From assembly GCF_006363815.1 (NCBI RefSeq), contig NZ_RRYT01000001.1, positions 85,531 through 149,530 of the forward strand: a stretch of DNA of 64,000 nucleotides, given 5' to 3'. The stretch's first letter is position 1; each line of letters opens with the position of its first letter. The stretch comes from Thermomonospora catenispora. GTDB lineage: Bacteria > Actinomycetota > Actinomycetes > Streptosporangiales > Streptosporangiaceae. This document shows positions 18,238 through 57,700 of the stretch, one piece after another. Position numbers and translations under genes: made by a program. Under the pieces are notes generated by a model. It had not been told where the DNA came from and searched no databases. It saw only the letters and a program-made list of their open reading frames with translations.

Positions 18238-18365
18238 TTCGTCGGCATTGTTCTCCACGCCGGGCGGAGCGGGCCGGCGATCATCCCCTCCGGGGCGAGG
18301 CGGACCGGGCTACCCTGTGAGGTCTCCCCGCTCGCCCCTGGCCGTTCTTCCATGGAGGAGATCTC

Positions 18366-19322
18366 GTGAAACTGCTCGTCACCGGAGGCGCCGGCTACAT
18401 CGGCAGCGTGGTCACGGCCCAGCTGCTGGAGGCGGGGCATCAGGTGGTCGTGCTGGACGACCTGTCGACCGGCCACGCCGACGCCGTGCCGGAGGGCGCC
18501 GAGCTGGTGCGCGGCACGTTGCGGGAGAAGGCCGCGCAGGTGCTGCAGGGGGCCGGGTTCGACGCGGTGCTGCACTTCGCGGCCAAGTCCCTGGTCGGCG
18601 AGTCGGTGGAAAAGCCCGGCCTGTACTGGGACCGCAACCTCGGCGAGTCGCTGGCGCTGCTGGACGCGATGCGGGAGGCGGGGGTGGACCGGATCGTGTT
18701 CTCCTCCACCGCGGCGACCTACGGGGAGCCGGAGCGCACCCCGATCCTGGAGACCGACCCGACCCGCCCGACCAACCCCTACGGCGCGACCAAGCTCGCG
18801 ATCGACGCCGCGCTGACCGAGTTCGCCCGGCTGCACGGGATCGGCGGAGTGTCGCTGCGGTACTTCAACGTGGCGGGCGCCTACGGCCGGTTCGGCGAGC
18901 GGCACGCGGTGGAGACCCACCTGATCCCCAACGTGCTGGCGGTGGCGGCGGGCGCCCGCGAGTCGGTGAGCGTGTTCGGGGAGGACTACCCCACCCCCGA
19001 CGGCACCTGCATCCGCGACTACATCCACGTGGTGGACCTGGGCCGGGCGCACCTGCTGGCGCTGGAGGCCTGCACGCCGGGCCGCCACCGGATCTACAAC
19101 CTGGGCAACGGCGACGGCTTCTCGGTGCGCGAGGTCATCGAGGTGTGCCGCGAGGTGACCGGTCACCCGATCCCGACGACCGTGGGACCGCGCCGGCCGG
19201 GCGACCCGGCGGTGCTGGTGGCCTCCTCGGAGAGGATCCGGACGGAGCTGGGCTGGAAGCCCGAGCACGACCTGCGGGCGATGGTCGGCGACGCGTGGAC
19301 GTTCCTGAAGTCCCGGGCGTGA
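18366..19322 (+). CDS. galE: UDP-glucose 4-epimerase
   Basis: Interconverts UDP-glucose and UDP-galactose with tightly bound NAD. Seen: Rossmann motif GGAGYIG (7-13), DDLSTGH, catalytic FSSTAATYG and Y139-x3-K143 (YGATK), [10 protein letters not shown], and the C-terminal [11 protein letters not shown]. 318 residues. GTG start preceded by GGAGGAGA. Its TGA overlaps the GTG of galK (GTGA at 19319-19322), forming a coupled galEK operon for the Leloir pathway; galT is not in this operon. Confidence 0.95.
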
Positions 19323-53937: not shown

Positions 53938-53968
53938 TTGACCTTGAATTTCCTACCAAATGTATGGG
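53938..53968 (+). promoter_or_regulatory. Possible promoter of the dicarboxylate symporter
   Basis: TTGACC (53938-53943) and TATGGG (53963-53968), 19 bases apart, lie in the only AT-rich patch between the genes (about 53930-53975). A start near 53975 would leave a 30-base leader. Confidence 0.35.
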
Positions 53969-54004
53969 AATCTCCGGGGGAGGCACGCCCCACAGGAGGC
54001 CCTC

Positions 54005-55339
54005 GTGAGCATCGTCCGCAAGCTCGCCGCCGTGCCGTTCTGGCAGCAGGTCCTGCTCGCCCTGGTGCTCGGCACCGCCGTCGGCGCCCTGATCTACAAC
54101 GTCGGTTCCGAGGACGTCGTCGAGGACTGGCTGGACCCCTTCGGCGGCGTCTACGTCAATCTGCTCAAGCTGATCGTGCTGCCGCTGGTGTTCAGCGCGA
54201 TCGTGGTCAGCCTGGGACGGCTGCGCCGCATCGGCGGCGTCGCCCGGCTGACCGCCAAGACCATCGGCTGGTTCGTCATCACCTCCACCGTGGCGGTGGC
54301 CATCGGCCTGGTGGTCGGGCTGCTGATCCGGCCCGGCGACGGGGTCGGCGACCTGTCCGCGGAGCAGGTGGACGCCAAGGAGGTCACCTGGACCCAGGTG
54401 CTCGGCAACCTGGTCCCGGGCAACCCGGTGCAGGCCATGTCCGAGGGCAACGTGCTCGGCGTGGTGTTCTTCGCCGGCCTGTTCGGGGCGGCGCTGGTGA
54501 CGCTCGGCGAACGCGGACGGCGGCTGAGCGAGCTGTTCGAGGAGCTGTACCTGGTCGCCCAGAAGCTGGTGTGGTGGGTGGTGCGCCTGGCGCCGATCGG
54601 GTCGTTCTTCCTGATCGCGTCGGTGGTGGCCACCTACGGCCCCGGGTCGCTGGCGCCGCTGGCGAAGTTCACCGGAGCGCTCTATCTGGCCGCGGCGGTG
54701 ATGCTGCTGGCCGGCTACCCGCTGCTGCTGGCGGTCTTCGCGCGGGTGTCGCCGGTGAAGTTCCTGCGCAACTCCTGGCCCGCGCTGCAGTTCGCGTTCG
54801 TGTCGGCGTCCTCGCTGGCCACGCTGCCCATCTCGCAGCGGGTCTCGATCGAGCGCAACGGCGTGCAGCCGGAGTACACGGCGTTCGCCCAGCCGCTGGG
54901 GGCGACGGTCAAGTTCGACGGCTGCGGGGCGATCTATCCGGCGCTGGCGGCGCTGTTCGTGTCCCAGTACACCGGGACCGCCCTGGGCTGGACCGACTTC
55001 GCGCTGATCGCGGTGGCGGCGGTGATCGGCCAGCTCGGCATCGGCGGCACCCCGGGTCCGGCGCTGGTGGCGTTGACGCTCACGCTGACCACGGTGGGCC
55101 TGCCGCTGGAGGCGATCGGATACCTGCTCGCCGTGGACCGCGTCCTCGACATGGCCCGCACCACCGTGAACGTGGCCGGCCAGCTCGCGGTGCCGGTGCT
55201 GGTGGCCCGCTCCGAGGGGATCTTGGACAAGGAGGTGTTCGACCGTCCGCCGGTCGACATCACCGCCGCCCCCGCGACGGAGGAGGCCCCGGCGGAGGAG
55301 AGGGCCGCGGAGCAGGAGCCGCAGCCGGTTCAGGGCTGA
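54005..55339 (+). CDS. Dicarboxylate/amino acid:cation symporter (DAACS family)
   Basis: Imports glutamate, aspartate or C4-dicarboxylates with H+ or Na+. Seen: LLKLIVLPLVFSAIVVSLGRL, VVFFAGLFGAALVTLGERG, a variant of the HP1 serine-rich loop SASSLATLPISQR (about 284-296), GATVKFDGCGAIYPALAALFVSQ (NMDGT-type motif altered to KFDGC) and GTPGPALVALTLTLTTVGLPLEAIGYLLAVDRVLDMARTTVNVAGQ. 444 residues. GTG 54005 with AGGAGG. A Glu/Ala tail ends the protein. The altered NMDGT motif hints at changed substrate or cation coupling. Confidence 0.9.
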   Translation: MSIVRKLAAVPFWQQVLLALVLGTAVGALIYNVGSEDVVEDWLDPFGGVYVNLLKLIVLPLVFSAIVVSLGRLRRIGGVARLTAKTIGWFVITSTVAVAIGLVVGLLIRPGDGVGDLSAEQVDAKEVTWTQVLGNLVPGNPVQAMSEGNVLGVVFFAGLFGAALVTLGERGRRLSELFEELYLVAQKLVWWVVRLAPIGSFFLIASVVATYGPGSLAPLAKFTGALYLAAAVMLLAGYPLLLAVFARVSPVKFLRNSWPALQFAFVSASSLATLPISQRVSIERNGVQPEYTAFAQPLGATVKFDGCGAIYPALAALFVSQYTGTALGWTDFALIAVAAVIGQLGIGGTPGPALVALTLTLTTVGLPLEAIGYLLAVDRVLDMARTTVNVAGQLAVPVLVARSEGILDKEVFDRPPVDITAAPATEEAPAEERAAEQEPQPVQG

Positions 55340-55513
55340 CCGGCGGCCGGCACGGCCGGTCGCCTCAGGGGCGCCGCATCGGCGCCCTCCCCCGCGGCCG
55401 GCCGGCACGGTCGGGCGGTCGGGCCGCGCACGCGGTCGGACCCGCGCCCGCCGCTGCCGCCCGAGAGGTTCCGCTCCCCCGCGGGCGACCGGTCGAGCCG
55501 TGTGTGCAGGGTG

Positions 55514-55945
55514 TCAGCCGAGCTGCGCGTGCAGGGTGACGGCGTAGGCCGGCCCCGGGTTGGTGATCTCGTGGGCGCGGCCGCCGTGCACCCGGATCCG
55601 GTTGGCGCGCAGCGGCCGTTCGGTGACGCCGTCGGCGCCGATGACGATCTCGATCAGCTCTCCGGCGATCACGGTGCTGACATGGGTGCCGCCGTGGTCG
55701 TGCACGTCGGTGCGGTGTCCGGGCGGCCAGGTGGTCAGCCAGATCCGCACGCCGTCGTCTTCCAGCACCACCTGGTCGGGCCGGCCGGGATGAGGGCGCA
55801 CCAGGTGCCACCACTGGTCGGGGCGGCCGGCGAGCCGGTGGATGCGGGCGGCGAGCTGGCCGACCGTGGGCGCGGTGGCGGTGGCCAGGCCGTGCGGGTC
55901 GTCCCGCCCGCGCATCGTGATGTCGGGAATGGTGTCGAGACTCAC
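55514..55945 (-). CDS. Cysteine dioxygenase-like cupin
   Basis: Probable iron-dependent oxidation of cysteine to cysteinesulfinate. 143 residues. Seen: WLTTWPPGHRTDVHDHGGTHVSTVIAGELIEIVI, whose HDHGGTH supplies the first two metal histidines, and VHGGRAHEITNPGPAYAVTLHA with the third (AHEI). The short form is typical of actinobacterial cysteine dioxygenases. GTG 55945 with AAGGA upstream. A polycysteine leader ORF lies 80 bases upstream on the same strand, which supports a cysteine-related role. A wider cupin role is the alternative. Confidence 0.85.
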   Translation of the reverse strand: MSLDTIPDITMRGRDDPHGLATATAPTVGQLAARIHRLAGRPDQWWHLVRPHPGRPDQVVLEDDGVRIWLTTWPPGHRTDVHDHGGTHVSTVIAGELIEIVIGADGVTERPLRANRIRVHGGRAHEITNPGPAYAVTLHAQLG

Positions 55946-55974
55946 CGAGAGGTCCTTGATCTGTCGTCATCGCG

Positions 55975-55999
55975 CACGCCCTCGACGGCACGGGGCGTG
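55975..55999 (-). promoter_or_regulatory. Leader hairpin between polycysteine ORF and cysteine dioxygenase gene
   Basis: CACGCCC (55975-55981) pairs with GGGCGTG (55993-55999) around an 11-base loop. TGATCT at the leader stop (56028-56023, minus strand) is also complementary to AGATCA just before the Shine-Dalgarno (55962-55957). Together they could form alternative structures that expose or hide the dioxygenase RBS, depending on ribosome position. No U-tract is present, so a translational or Rho-dependent mechanism is more likely than intrinsic termination. Inferred. Confidence 0.45.
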
Positions 56000-56025
56000 A
56001 TCGGTCGGTCGTACGAAGGCCGAGA

Positions 56026-56112
56026 TCAGCGACAACAACAGAGACACGGACACGGCGCGACGGCCACGGGGGTCAGATCCCGCTGGCTGGGAAGGCAGAT
56101 GCGCGCCGACAT
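56026..56112 (-). CDS. Polycysteine leader peptide ahead of the cysteine dioxygenase gene
   Basis: 28-codon ORF starting MSARICLPSQRD and ending APCPCLCCCR, with five cysteines among its last eight residues and six in all. The stop lies 80 bases before the dioxygenase start on the same strand. Mycobacteria use short, often leaderless, polycysteine ORFs as cysteine-responsive attenuators; this has that form. A consensus -35 TTGACA lies about 37 bases upstream, and an in-frame GTG at 56118 would fit a leaderless start. Regulation by Cys-tRNA supply is inferred. Confidence 0.7.
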   Translation of the reverse strand: MSARICLPSQRDLTPVAVAPCPCLCCCR

Positions 56113-56446
56113 GTGCACCAGGAGACATGCCCTCACGCACCGTTGTCAAGTCGATCGGGAACATCGGCGCGGCCCGCCCGCACCGCCCCGGAACGGCCCG
56201 AACGCCGGGCGCCGCTCGACGCCGTCCCGCAGGCCCCGCGAAGCGCACGAGCGAAGGGATCGGGCGCCGGGACGGCCCGTCCGCCGGCGCGGGCGATCAT
56301 GGGCCTCGCCCGCCCTTCGATGCTCTGATCTGGGATGATGTGGGCGCCGAAGGTCGGATCCGGCCCTGACGCACTAGCGGGACGGGCAAGGCCCGCCGTA
56401 TGGTCACCAACGTCGACCCCCCGACATGAAGGGCAGGAAGTCGCTG
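56113..56446. promoter_or_regulatory. Divergent region, polycysteine leader / CoxG-like gene
   Basis: 334 bases. TTGACA on the minus strand near 56145-56150 is the likely -35 for the leader ORF, with a weak TGTCTC-like -10. The right part (56330-56446) carries the promoter of the CoxG-like gene; no clear hexamers there. No gene is convincing. Confidence 0.4.
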
Positions 56447-57700
56447 ATGGAGTTCGACCACGACTTCACCGTGCCGGTATCGGTGGATCAGGCCTGGTCG
56501 GTGCTGCTGGACGTGGAACGAGTGGCGTCGTGCGCGCCGGGCGCCACGCTCGACTCCATCGACGGCGACGAGTGCAGGGGTCGCTTCAAGGTCCGGCTCG
56601 GCGCCATGACCATCACCTACCGCGGCACCGCCCGAATCGTCGAGGCCGACGAGTCCGCCCGCACCGTGGTCATCGAGGCGCAGGGCAAGGAGGCCCGCGG
56701 CTCCGGCACCGCCGAAGCCGCCGTCACGGCCCGCCTGTCGGAGGAGGACGGCGCCACGCGCGTCGCCGTGCACGCCACCGTGCACGCCACCGGCCGCCCC
56801 ACCCAGGTCGACCGCGACACCCTCGCCGAGGTCGGCGCCCGTCTGCTGAACCGCTTCGCCAAGGCCCTCGCCGCGGACCTGGCCGAGAACCCGCCGTCCG
56901 ACGCCCTTGCGGAGCAGCCCTCCGCGGAACAGGCCCCCACGGAACGGCCCTCCTCGGAGCAGGCCGCCGCGGAGCGGCCCCCTGCACGAGAGGACTCCTC
57001 AGCGCGGTCCTCGGCGGAGCAGACGGGGGACGCCGCCGCCGAGGCGGCGGCGAGCCCGGCGGAGGAGGGCACCGGCGCGTCCTCGGACGCCGCCGGCGAC
57101 GTCTCCTCGACCGGGACGGACGCCCCCGGCGACGCCGTCGACGCCGGCGCCGGCACGGGGCCGACGGCGGCGGACGGCGACACGACCGCCGAGGCGGCGG
57201 ATCCCGGTTCCGACGCCGGCGCCCCGTCGGGCGAGGCGGCTTCGGAGGACGGGACGGCCTCCGGAGAGGCCGCGCCCGCGGACGAGGCGCCGGCGGACCG
57301 GGGGGACGATGCGGGCCCCGCGGTCGACGGCGAAGCCGCCGGGCGGGTGCCCGGTGTGCTCGTCGAGCCCAAGGATCCGGTGGGGGGCGTCGGGCTGTCG
57401 CTGGGGCCGCAGGTGCCGGCCCCGCGGGAGGCGGCGGATCGGCCGGCGGCCCCGCACGCCTCCGACGGGGACGGCGGGACGGCCGAACGGCTCACGGCGG
57501 TGCCCGCTCCCCGTCCGGCGGCGGACGACCGGCCGCGGCGCGGCGGCGCGCACCGTCGCCGGGATGACGACGCGGTCGACATGCTGCAGGTCTCGGGCCC
57601 CTCGGTGGCCAAGCGGGCGGCCCCGGCGCTGGGAGCGCTGGCCGCGCTGCTGGCGGTGCGGTATCTGTTCCGCCGGCGGCGGGGTCGGCACCACCGCTGA
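56447..57700 (+). CDS. CoxG/SRPBCC-type protein with long acidic linker and C-terminal membrane anchor
   Basis: 417 residues. The CoxG-like carbon-monoxide-dehydrogenase subunit G fold occupies about 1-150 (MEFDHDFTVPVSVDQAWSVLLDVERVASCAPGATLDSIDG, RGTARIVEADESARTVVIEAQGKEARGSGTAEAAVTARL). Then follow about 200 residues of Ala/Glu/Asp/Pro/Ser low complexity, a Pro-rich patch and a C-terminal helix SVAKRAAPALGALAALLAVRYLF ending in RRRRGRHH. ATG 56447 is set by AGGAAG 8 bases upstream; ATG 56426 has none. It probably tethers the lipid-binding-like domain to the membrane. No CO dehydrogenase genes lie nearby. Confidence 0.8.
   Translation: MEFDHDFTVPVSVDQAWSVLLDVERVASCAPGATLDSIDGDECRGRFKVRLGAMTITYRGTARIVEADESARTVVIEAQGKEARGSGTAEAAVTARLSEEDGATRVAVHATVHATGRPTQVDRDTLAEVGARLLNRFAKALAADLAENPPSDALAEQPSAEQAPTERPSSEQAAAERPPAREDSSARSSAEQTGDAAAEAAASPAEEGTGASSDAAGDVSSTGTDAPGDAVDAGAGTGPTAADGDTTAEAADPGSDAGAPSGEAASEDGTASGEAAPADEAPADRGDDAGPAVDGEAAGRVPGVLVEPKDPVGGVGLSLGPQVPAPREAADRPAAPHASDGDGGTAERLTAVPAPRPAADDRPRRGGAHRRRDDDAVDMLQVSGPSVAKRAAPALGALAALLAVRYLFRRRRGRHHR

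Follow-up and report, generated by a model that had tools for sequence, protein, structure and literature searches.

A conserved polycysteine leader ORF upstream of a cysteine dioxygenase-like cupin gene in Thermomonospora catenispora, and its predicted role as a cysteine-responsive translational attenuator

A short open reading frame (ORF) that ends in a cluster of cysteine codons lies just upstream of a gene for a short cupin related to cysteine dioxygenase (CDO) in Thermomonospora catenispora. This leader ORF is real and conserved, and on the basis of folding models we propose that it forms part of a cysteine-sensing, ribosome-mediated translational attenuator, predicted to switch the CDO-like gene ON at low cysteine. 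We give this reading a probability of about 0.72, because the computed effect on the Shine-Dalgarno (SD) sequence is only moderate in the genus of the window, i.e. of the whole 64,000 nt stretch of DNA that was analysed (contig NZ_RRYT01000001.1 of assembly GCF_006363815.1, positions 85,531 to 149,530).

The original prediction placed a polycysteine ORF of 28 codons 80 nt before a CDO-like cupin gene on the same strand, and this arrangement is confirmed. The leader (MSARICLPSQRDLTPVAVAPCPCLCCCR) runs with its stop codon from 56112 to 56026 on the minus strand and ends in CPCLCCCR, i.e. five cysteines in eight residues; its Cys codons are numbers 21, 23, 25, 26 and 27, and all are TGT. The gap of 80 nt between the leader stop and the GTG start of the cupin gene at 55945 contains the SD sequence AAGGA (55957-55953, minus), which is partly paired in the folding model. 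The cupin (55945-55514, minus) has 143 amino acids. It scores 24.2 bits against the Pfam model CDO_I (PF05995), above the cut-off of 23, and the profile of its family finds CDO structures with a best E value of 1.2e-6. Convergent with the CDO-like gene there is a gene of the Sodium:dicarboxylate symporter family (53960-55339, plus; PF00375, 356.9 bits), a family that includes cystine carriers.

Orthologues of the window cupin are termed type 2. A search of 297 genomes of the family gave 84 with a match at 1e-15, of which 74 were counted as type 2; borderline genomes were assigned by score and reading rather than from a tree. With two named records these genomes provide 76 distinct upstream regions. 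Upstream loci were taken at 72 bits or more and exact upstream duplicates were skipped. Four loci were excluded manually: L018 and L118 belong to the type-1 paralogues, whereas L019 (83 bits) and L020 (73 bits) are not members of the family and have no Cys cluster. Two more stand outside the 75 loci used for statistics, L117 (type 1) and L104 (mis-anchored), the leader of L104 being present when read by eye. The loci are related to each other, so that the counts given here are not independent. Of the named orthologues found, that of Thermomonospora echinospora is the closest (81% identity), with others in Actinomadura, and among 394 genomes of the class type-2 matches above 100 bits occur in four only, all of them in the family of the window.

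Conservation of the Cys cluster before orthologous CDO-like genes in relatives was the check proposed with the original prediction: all 76 regions have a short ORF with two to six cysteines at its C-terminus just upstream of the type-2 gene. The last ten codons contain two cysteines in 7 of the 75 leaders, three in 31, four in 26, five in 10 and six in one. By comparison, three or more are found before 34 of 4719 control stop codons in the same loci; together with the conservation this rules out a chance origin of the cluster. In the genome the pattern TGYTGYTGYCGNTGA has six matches, of which only that in the window reads TGTTGTTGTCGCTGA; by reading of the listed frames, none of the other five matches of TGYTGYTGYCGNTGA has a short ORF before a recognisable cysteine gene. 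No same-strand neighbour of the type-2 gene is constant in the 24 loci inspected (two of which are the same region), an ABC transporter gene being next in five. In two more genera a Cys-cluster leader precedes a protein sharing a PTVGQL-type sequence with type 2; the first 160 residues of the one examined gave no Pfam match. L166 and L171 have Cys-cluster leaders with TTGACA promoters and the SD sequence CACGAAGGA; the type-2-like proteins that follow them are very divergent, and no HxH could be recognised in them.

Outside the cluster the leader peptide is variable (consensus of 20 leaders MPARxxxxSxVALxRVAxALCPSCCCR). A functional small protein that binds a metal or takes part in redox chemistry could be imagined, since 68 of 75 leaders have at least three cysteines close to the C-terminus. 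This variable body, a start that adjoins the promoter and the coupling in cis to the ribosome binding site (RBS) described below make such a role scarcely credible.

In most loci the leader starts at a similar distance from a conserved TTGAC. In the window the -35-like TTGACA (56149-56144, minus) lies 37 nt before the leader ATG at 56112. It is followed by a putative -10-like TCTCCT (56125-56120), without the usual A at position 2, for which the flanking GTGT..CCT is conserved in the 41 loci with the 37-nt spacing. A strict sigma-70 scan found no promoter at the window leader. In 69 of 75 loci a start codon follows TTGAC at a distance of 35-38 nt (36 or 37 nt in 62 of these), and a start chosen by this distance alone shares its frame with the Cys tail in all 69, with 12 different lengths between 39 and 108 nt. 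In the remaining six loci, by inspection, a start codon comes 6-7 nt after a TANNNT hexamer. If read from a start directly following TANNNT, L095 and L098 would have leaders of about ten codons (MFSAFSCCCR) shortly upstream of the cupin, perhaps the shortest of all. The place of the -10-like element predicts that the transcript begins at or next to the leader AUG, and we infer that the leader is probably leaderless. The leaderless start of the original prediction may hold, but not at the GTG that it had suggested; this codon is present six bases further upstream, and the conserved start is the ATG.

This retention of frame is also relevant to whether the ORF is translated. An untranslated RNA element, with the tail kept for base pairing only and the ORF incidental, would accord with the conservation of the tail as nucleotides and with the leader body, where a codon-position test revealed no excess of third-position changes (mismatches 1117, 873 and 1034 at positions 1, 2 and 3). 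For this last reason translation is argued from the keeping of the frame and from the Cys codons. The in-frame starts over 12 lengths, together with a stop codon that is TGA in 74 leaders and TAA in one, and Cys clusters that stay when the register of the anti-SD pairing changes, make an untranslated element very unlikely.

In the minimum free energy (MFE) structure of the window a 14-bp helix is formed between 56042-56029 and 55973-55960, and GUCC in the first Cys/Pro codons (56051-56048) pairs with GGAC (55955-55952) over the SD sequence (all on the minus strand), so that the RBS is covered. The 5′ arm of the helix, i.e. the anti-SD strand, comprises Cys codons 25-27 with their flanks and is predicted in MFE, centroid and duplex calculations; the 3′ arm, just upstream of the SD, is predicted in duplex and MFE calculations. 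The overall stability of the fold is unremarkable (z = -1.34, with 19 of 200 shuffles as good). The original prediction proposed a different switch, between TGATCT at the leader stop and AGATCA before the SD. Both hexamers are present in the window, but by inspection they are not kept in the other four loci of the genus, and the predicted partners are the two arms given above. No intrinsic terminator was found in 55900-56260, nor any Rfam family at gathering scores in 55500-56500.

Pairing between the Cys run and the SD region is also computed for the relatives. Within the common tail TGTCCTTCGTGTTGTTGTCGCTGA lies CCTTCG, which is complementary to the SD sequence CGAAGG; 55 of 75 loci have both. 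On folding from leader to SD, the mean probability over the 75 loci that the SD core is unpaired is 0.06 when the RNA is free, 0.32 when the Cys run is held unpaired and 0.30 when it is shuffled. The native Cys run pairs with the SD region more strongly than the mean of its shuffles in 72 of 75 loci (the exceptions are L016, L095 and L112), and in 59 its pairing is reached by 5% of shuffles or fewer. Masking the run increases the accessibility of the SD in 70 of 75 (not in L009, L014, L064, L110 and L115). When SD regions were swapped among 15 genus groups the pairing energy of the native combinations was reached in none of 20000 permutations, with or without the genus of the window. Scored by helix length the exchange gives a less marked result, with 97 of 20000 permutations, or 1055 of 20000 if that genus is left out. 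The leader Cys codons are TGT rather than TGC in a ratio of 246:18, compared with 22:160 in 38 long ORFs of the window with high GC3, and the anti-SD pairing may explain part of this bias.

The genus of the window has its own register. Its tail lacks CCTTCG, and the Cys run pairs with the segment just 5′ of the SD, forming helices of 14, 13, 13, 13 and 10 bp in the five species. The SD core is unpaired with probabilities of 0.21, 0.46, 0.44, 0.36 and 0.22 in the free RNA (L007 to L011) and 0.47, 0.51, 0.35, 0.48 and 0.30 when the run is masked. Thus L009 changes in the opposite direction, and the effect, 0.21 to 0.47 in the window itself, is smaller than in the collection overall. Taken with the family-wide models, the leader region appears to sequester the downstream RBS, and a ribosome on the Cys codons to relieve this, more weakly in this genus.

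The computed exposure of the SD depends on where the ribosome stands. In a scan of ribosome footprints the mean SD opening is confined to positions with the A site from about ten codons before the stop to three after, a range that takes in the Cys cluster and the stop codon itself. From this we infer stalling and the direction of the response, as follows. Transcription would begin at or next to the leader AUG. With charged Cys-tRNA plentiful, ribosomes would clear the leader, the free stretch of Cys codons would pair with the region around the SD, and translation of the CDO-like gene would be low. Under a shortage of Cys-tRNA, a ribosome would pause on the Cys codons and cover the anti-SD strand, the SD region would open and the cupin would be translated. 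Pausing at the Cys codons exposes the SD in this model, so that the gene is expected to be ON at low cysteine.

The leader could instead control transcription, for example by Rho-dependent termination in the untranslated gap. Such control has been suggested for actinobacterial cys leaders without hairpins in PMC1262725, and would agree with the lack of an intrinsic terminator at the locus. Set against that, it is the SD region itself to which the Cys run is complementary, and the pairing is kept; we consider transcriptional control improbable.

The original prediction took the target to be a gene of cysteine degradation, and reasoned that high cysteine should turn it ON by an opposite wiring. 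The premise is a weak one for the family, judged from its sequence motifs. All three iron-binding histidines are intact in 27 of 75 type-2 proteins (i.e. not in 48), compared with 17 of 17 type-1 paralogues, and the YSP motif with its tyrosine is found in 0 of 75 compared with 15 of 17. A simple check for any HxH in the region agrees, giving 29 of 75, two of which are out of place by inspection. Neither the window cupin nor the type-2 family has the C-terminal YSPP segment, the CDO structure 8qfr running on into YSPPL where the type-2 match stops; we take this segment to carry the active-site tyrosine of CDO. The type-2 protein nevertheless seems to be maintained, because all 75 proteins keep WW and 71 of them AGE. 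It is probably not a housekeeping enzyme of cysteine degradation in much of the family. One guess would be a cupin that binds thiols or cysteine, with catalysis confined to the members that retain the three histidines. Structure prediction for the CDO-like cupin gave a pLDDT of 44.5.

In one respect the premise may survive, in that the window cupin keeps all three histidine ligands. It may therefore be active and degrade cysteine, so that being ON at low cysteine would be odd, and this is the main doubt about that direction. In an inverted switch the catabolic gene would be ON at high cysteine, e.g. if ribosomes reaching the stop opened the RBS or reinitiated downstream. These histidines favour it, and in the model the SD opens as well (mean 0.35) when the A site of the footprint is on the stop codon; furthermore, the canonical CDO-rhodanese operon of the same genome likewise has a cysteine leader before it. 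But termination is brief, and pausing on Cys codons should keep the anti-SD strand covered longest when Cys-tRNA is short. Moreover, the MFE structure of the window has no alternative helix of the opposite sense, and many orthologues lack the iron site. We therefore think an inverted switch unlikely. In the models the SD region pairs with the very codons that specify Cys, and this is the ordinary anatomy of a gene ON at low cysteine, not the opposite wiring.

The original prediction had likened the leader to mycobacterial polycysteine ORFs, and by anatomy the predicted wiring is indeed of that kind. Canestrari and colleagues reportedly described in 2020 leaderless ORFs of this type in mycobacteria, in which paused ribosomes free a sequestered RBS. 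Both have a short ORF at the 5′ end with a Cys run, followed by a gene of the cysteine field, the SD here being masked by the Cys-run region in our models. The present leaders differ in belonging to another bacterial family and in their target, a CDO-like cupin often without an iron site. We file the element, by its anatomy, as a conserved candidate variant of cysteine-responsive translational attenuation.

Many type-2 leaders have an RVxSALC-like core that resembles the HVDLxRxxSALC of two NCBIfam models, NF042934 (cis_reg_atten, 'putative leader peptide') and NF042936 ('Ms4527A family Cys-rich leader peptide'), but their Cys cluster is longer and has the anti-SD built in. For the window leader there is no hit to any NCBIfam model, and that of a relative (L038) scores 13.2 bits against the NF042934 cut-off of 27. 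Six leaders in the genome of the window exceed this cut-off, several before sulfur genes by reading. The genes that follow, of which CDO alone was confirmed by search, read as a 2-oxoacid:ferredoxin oxidoreductase, a type-1 CDO with rhodanese, a membrane protein with thiosulfate sulfurtransferase, a sulfonate-type ABC permease, and acyl-CoA dehydrogenase-like and sulfite reductase-like proteins. The oxidoreductase-like target of the first of these leaders (L138; contig 109, 283596-283649, plus) is not itself an obvious cysteine gene, and a link to Fe-S demand is a guess.

The canonical CDO-rhodanese operon (L047; contig 14, about 18324-18873, minus), thought to be catabolic, has the single-Cys leader MRPDVLQWRRRHVDLRRQASALCPVP (NF042934, 34.5 bits). 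It is thus also preceded by a cysteine leader, but one with a single terminal Cys, and its CDO has the full active-site motifs. The leader motif was found in 9 of 19 type-1 loci. SD masking is not shared with type 1, for in the five foldable loci the SD is unpaired at 0.22 free and 0.23 masked. Among the 297 family genomes type 1 (at least 145 bits) is present in 65, type 2 in 74 and both in 49. The 25 type-2 genomes without type 1 at this threshold exclude type 2 as its obligate partner.

In passages of the published literature, Cys codons near the stop of short upstream ORFs are noted for acnes and for cbs in B. longum (PMC1262725), and a Cys-rich upstream ORF precedes cysA2 (PMC4633059). 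The window leader shares this position of its Cys codons, but those targets make or import cysteine, and SD pairing is not described in those passages. The cysteine leaders of M. smegmatis are cited as translational attenuation in excerpts of PMC13236596 and PMC9031893. A search of open-access literature gave nothing recognisable on the type-2 leader or on any leader for CDO.

The module as a whole might, tentatively, be a pseudo-enzyme induced by cysteine starvation. The CDO-derived cupin would have lost catalysis in many lineages while still under Cys-codon control, acting as a cysteine- or thiol-binding regulator or as partner of another CDO, with sensor codons and anti-SD in one stretch whose register shifted together in the genus of the window. 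If the attenuator is correct, cysteine-responsive ribosome-mediated attenuation would reach beyond the mycobacteria, the 76 sequences providing a set with natural variation, and a single stretch of codons would be both sensor and anti-SD. It would also place a family of decaying cysteine dioxygenase relatives under apparent starvation control, so that their function would become testable.
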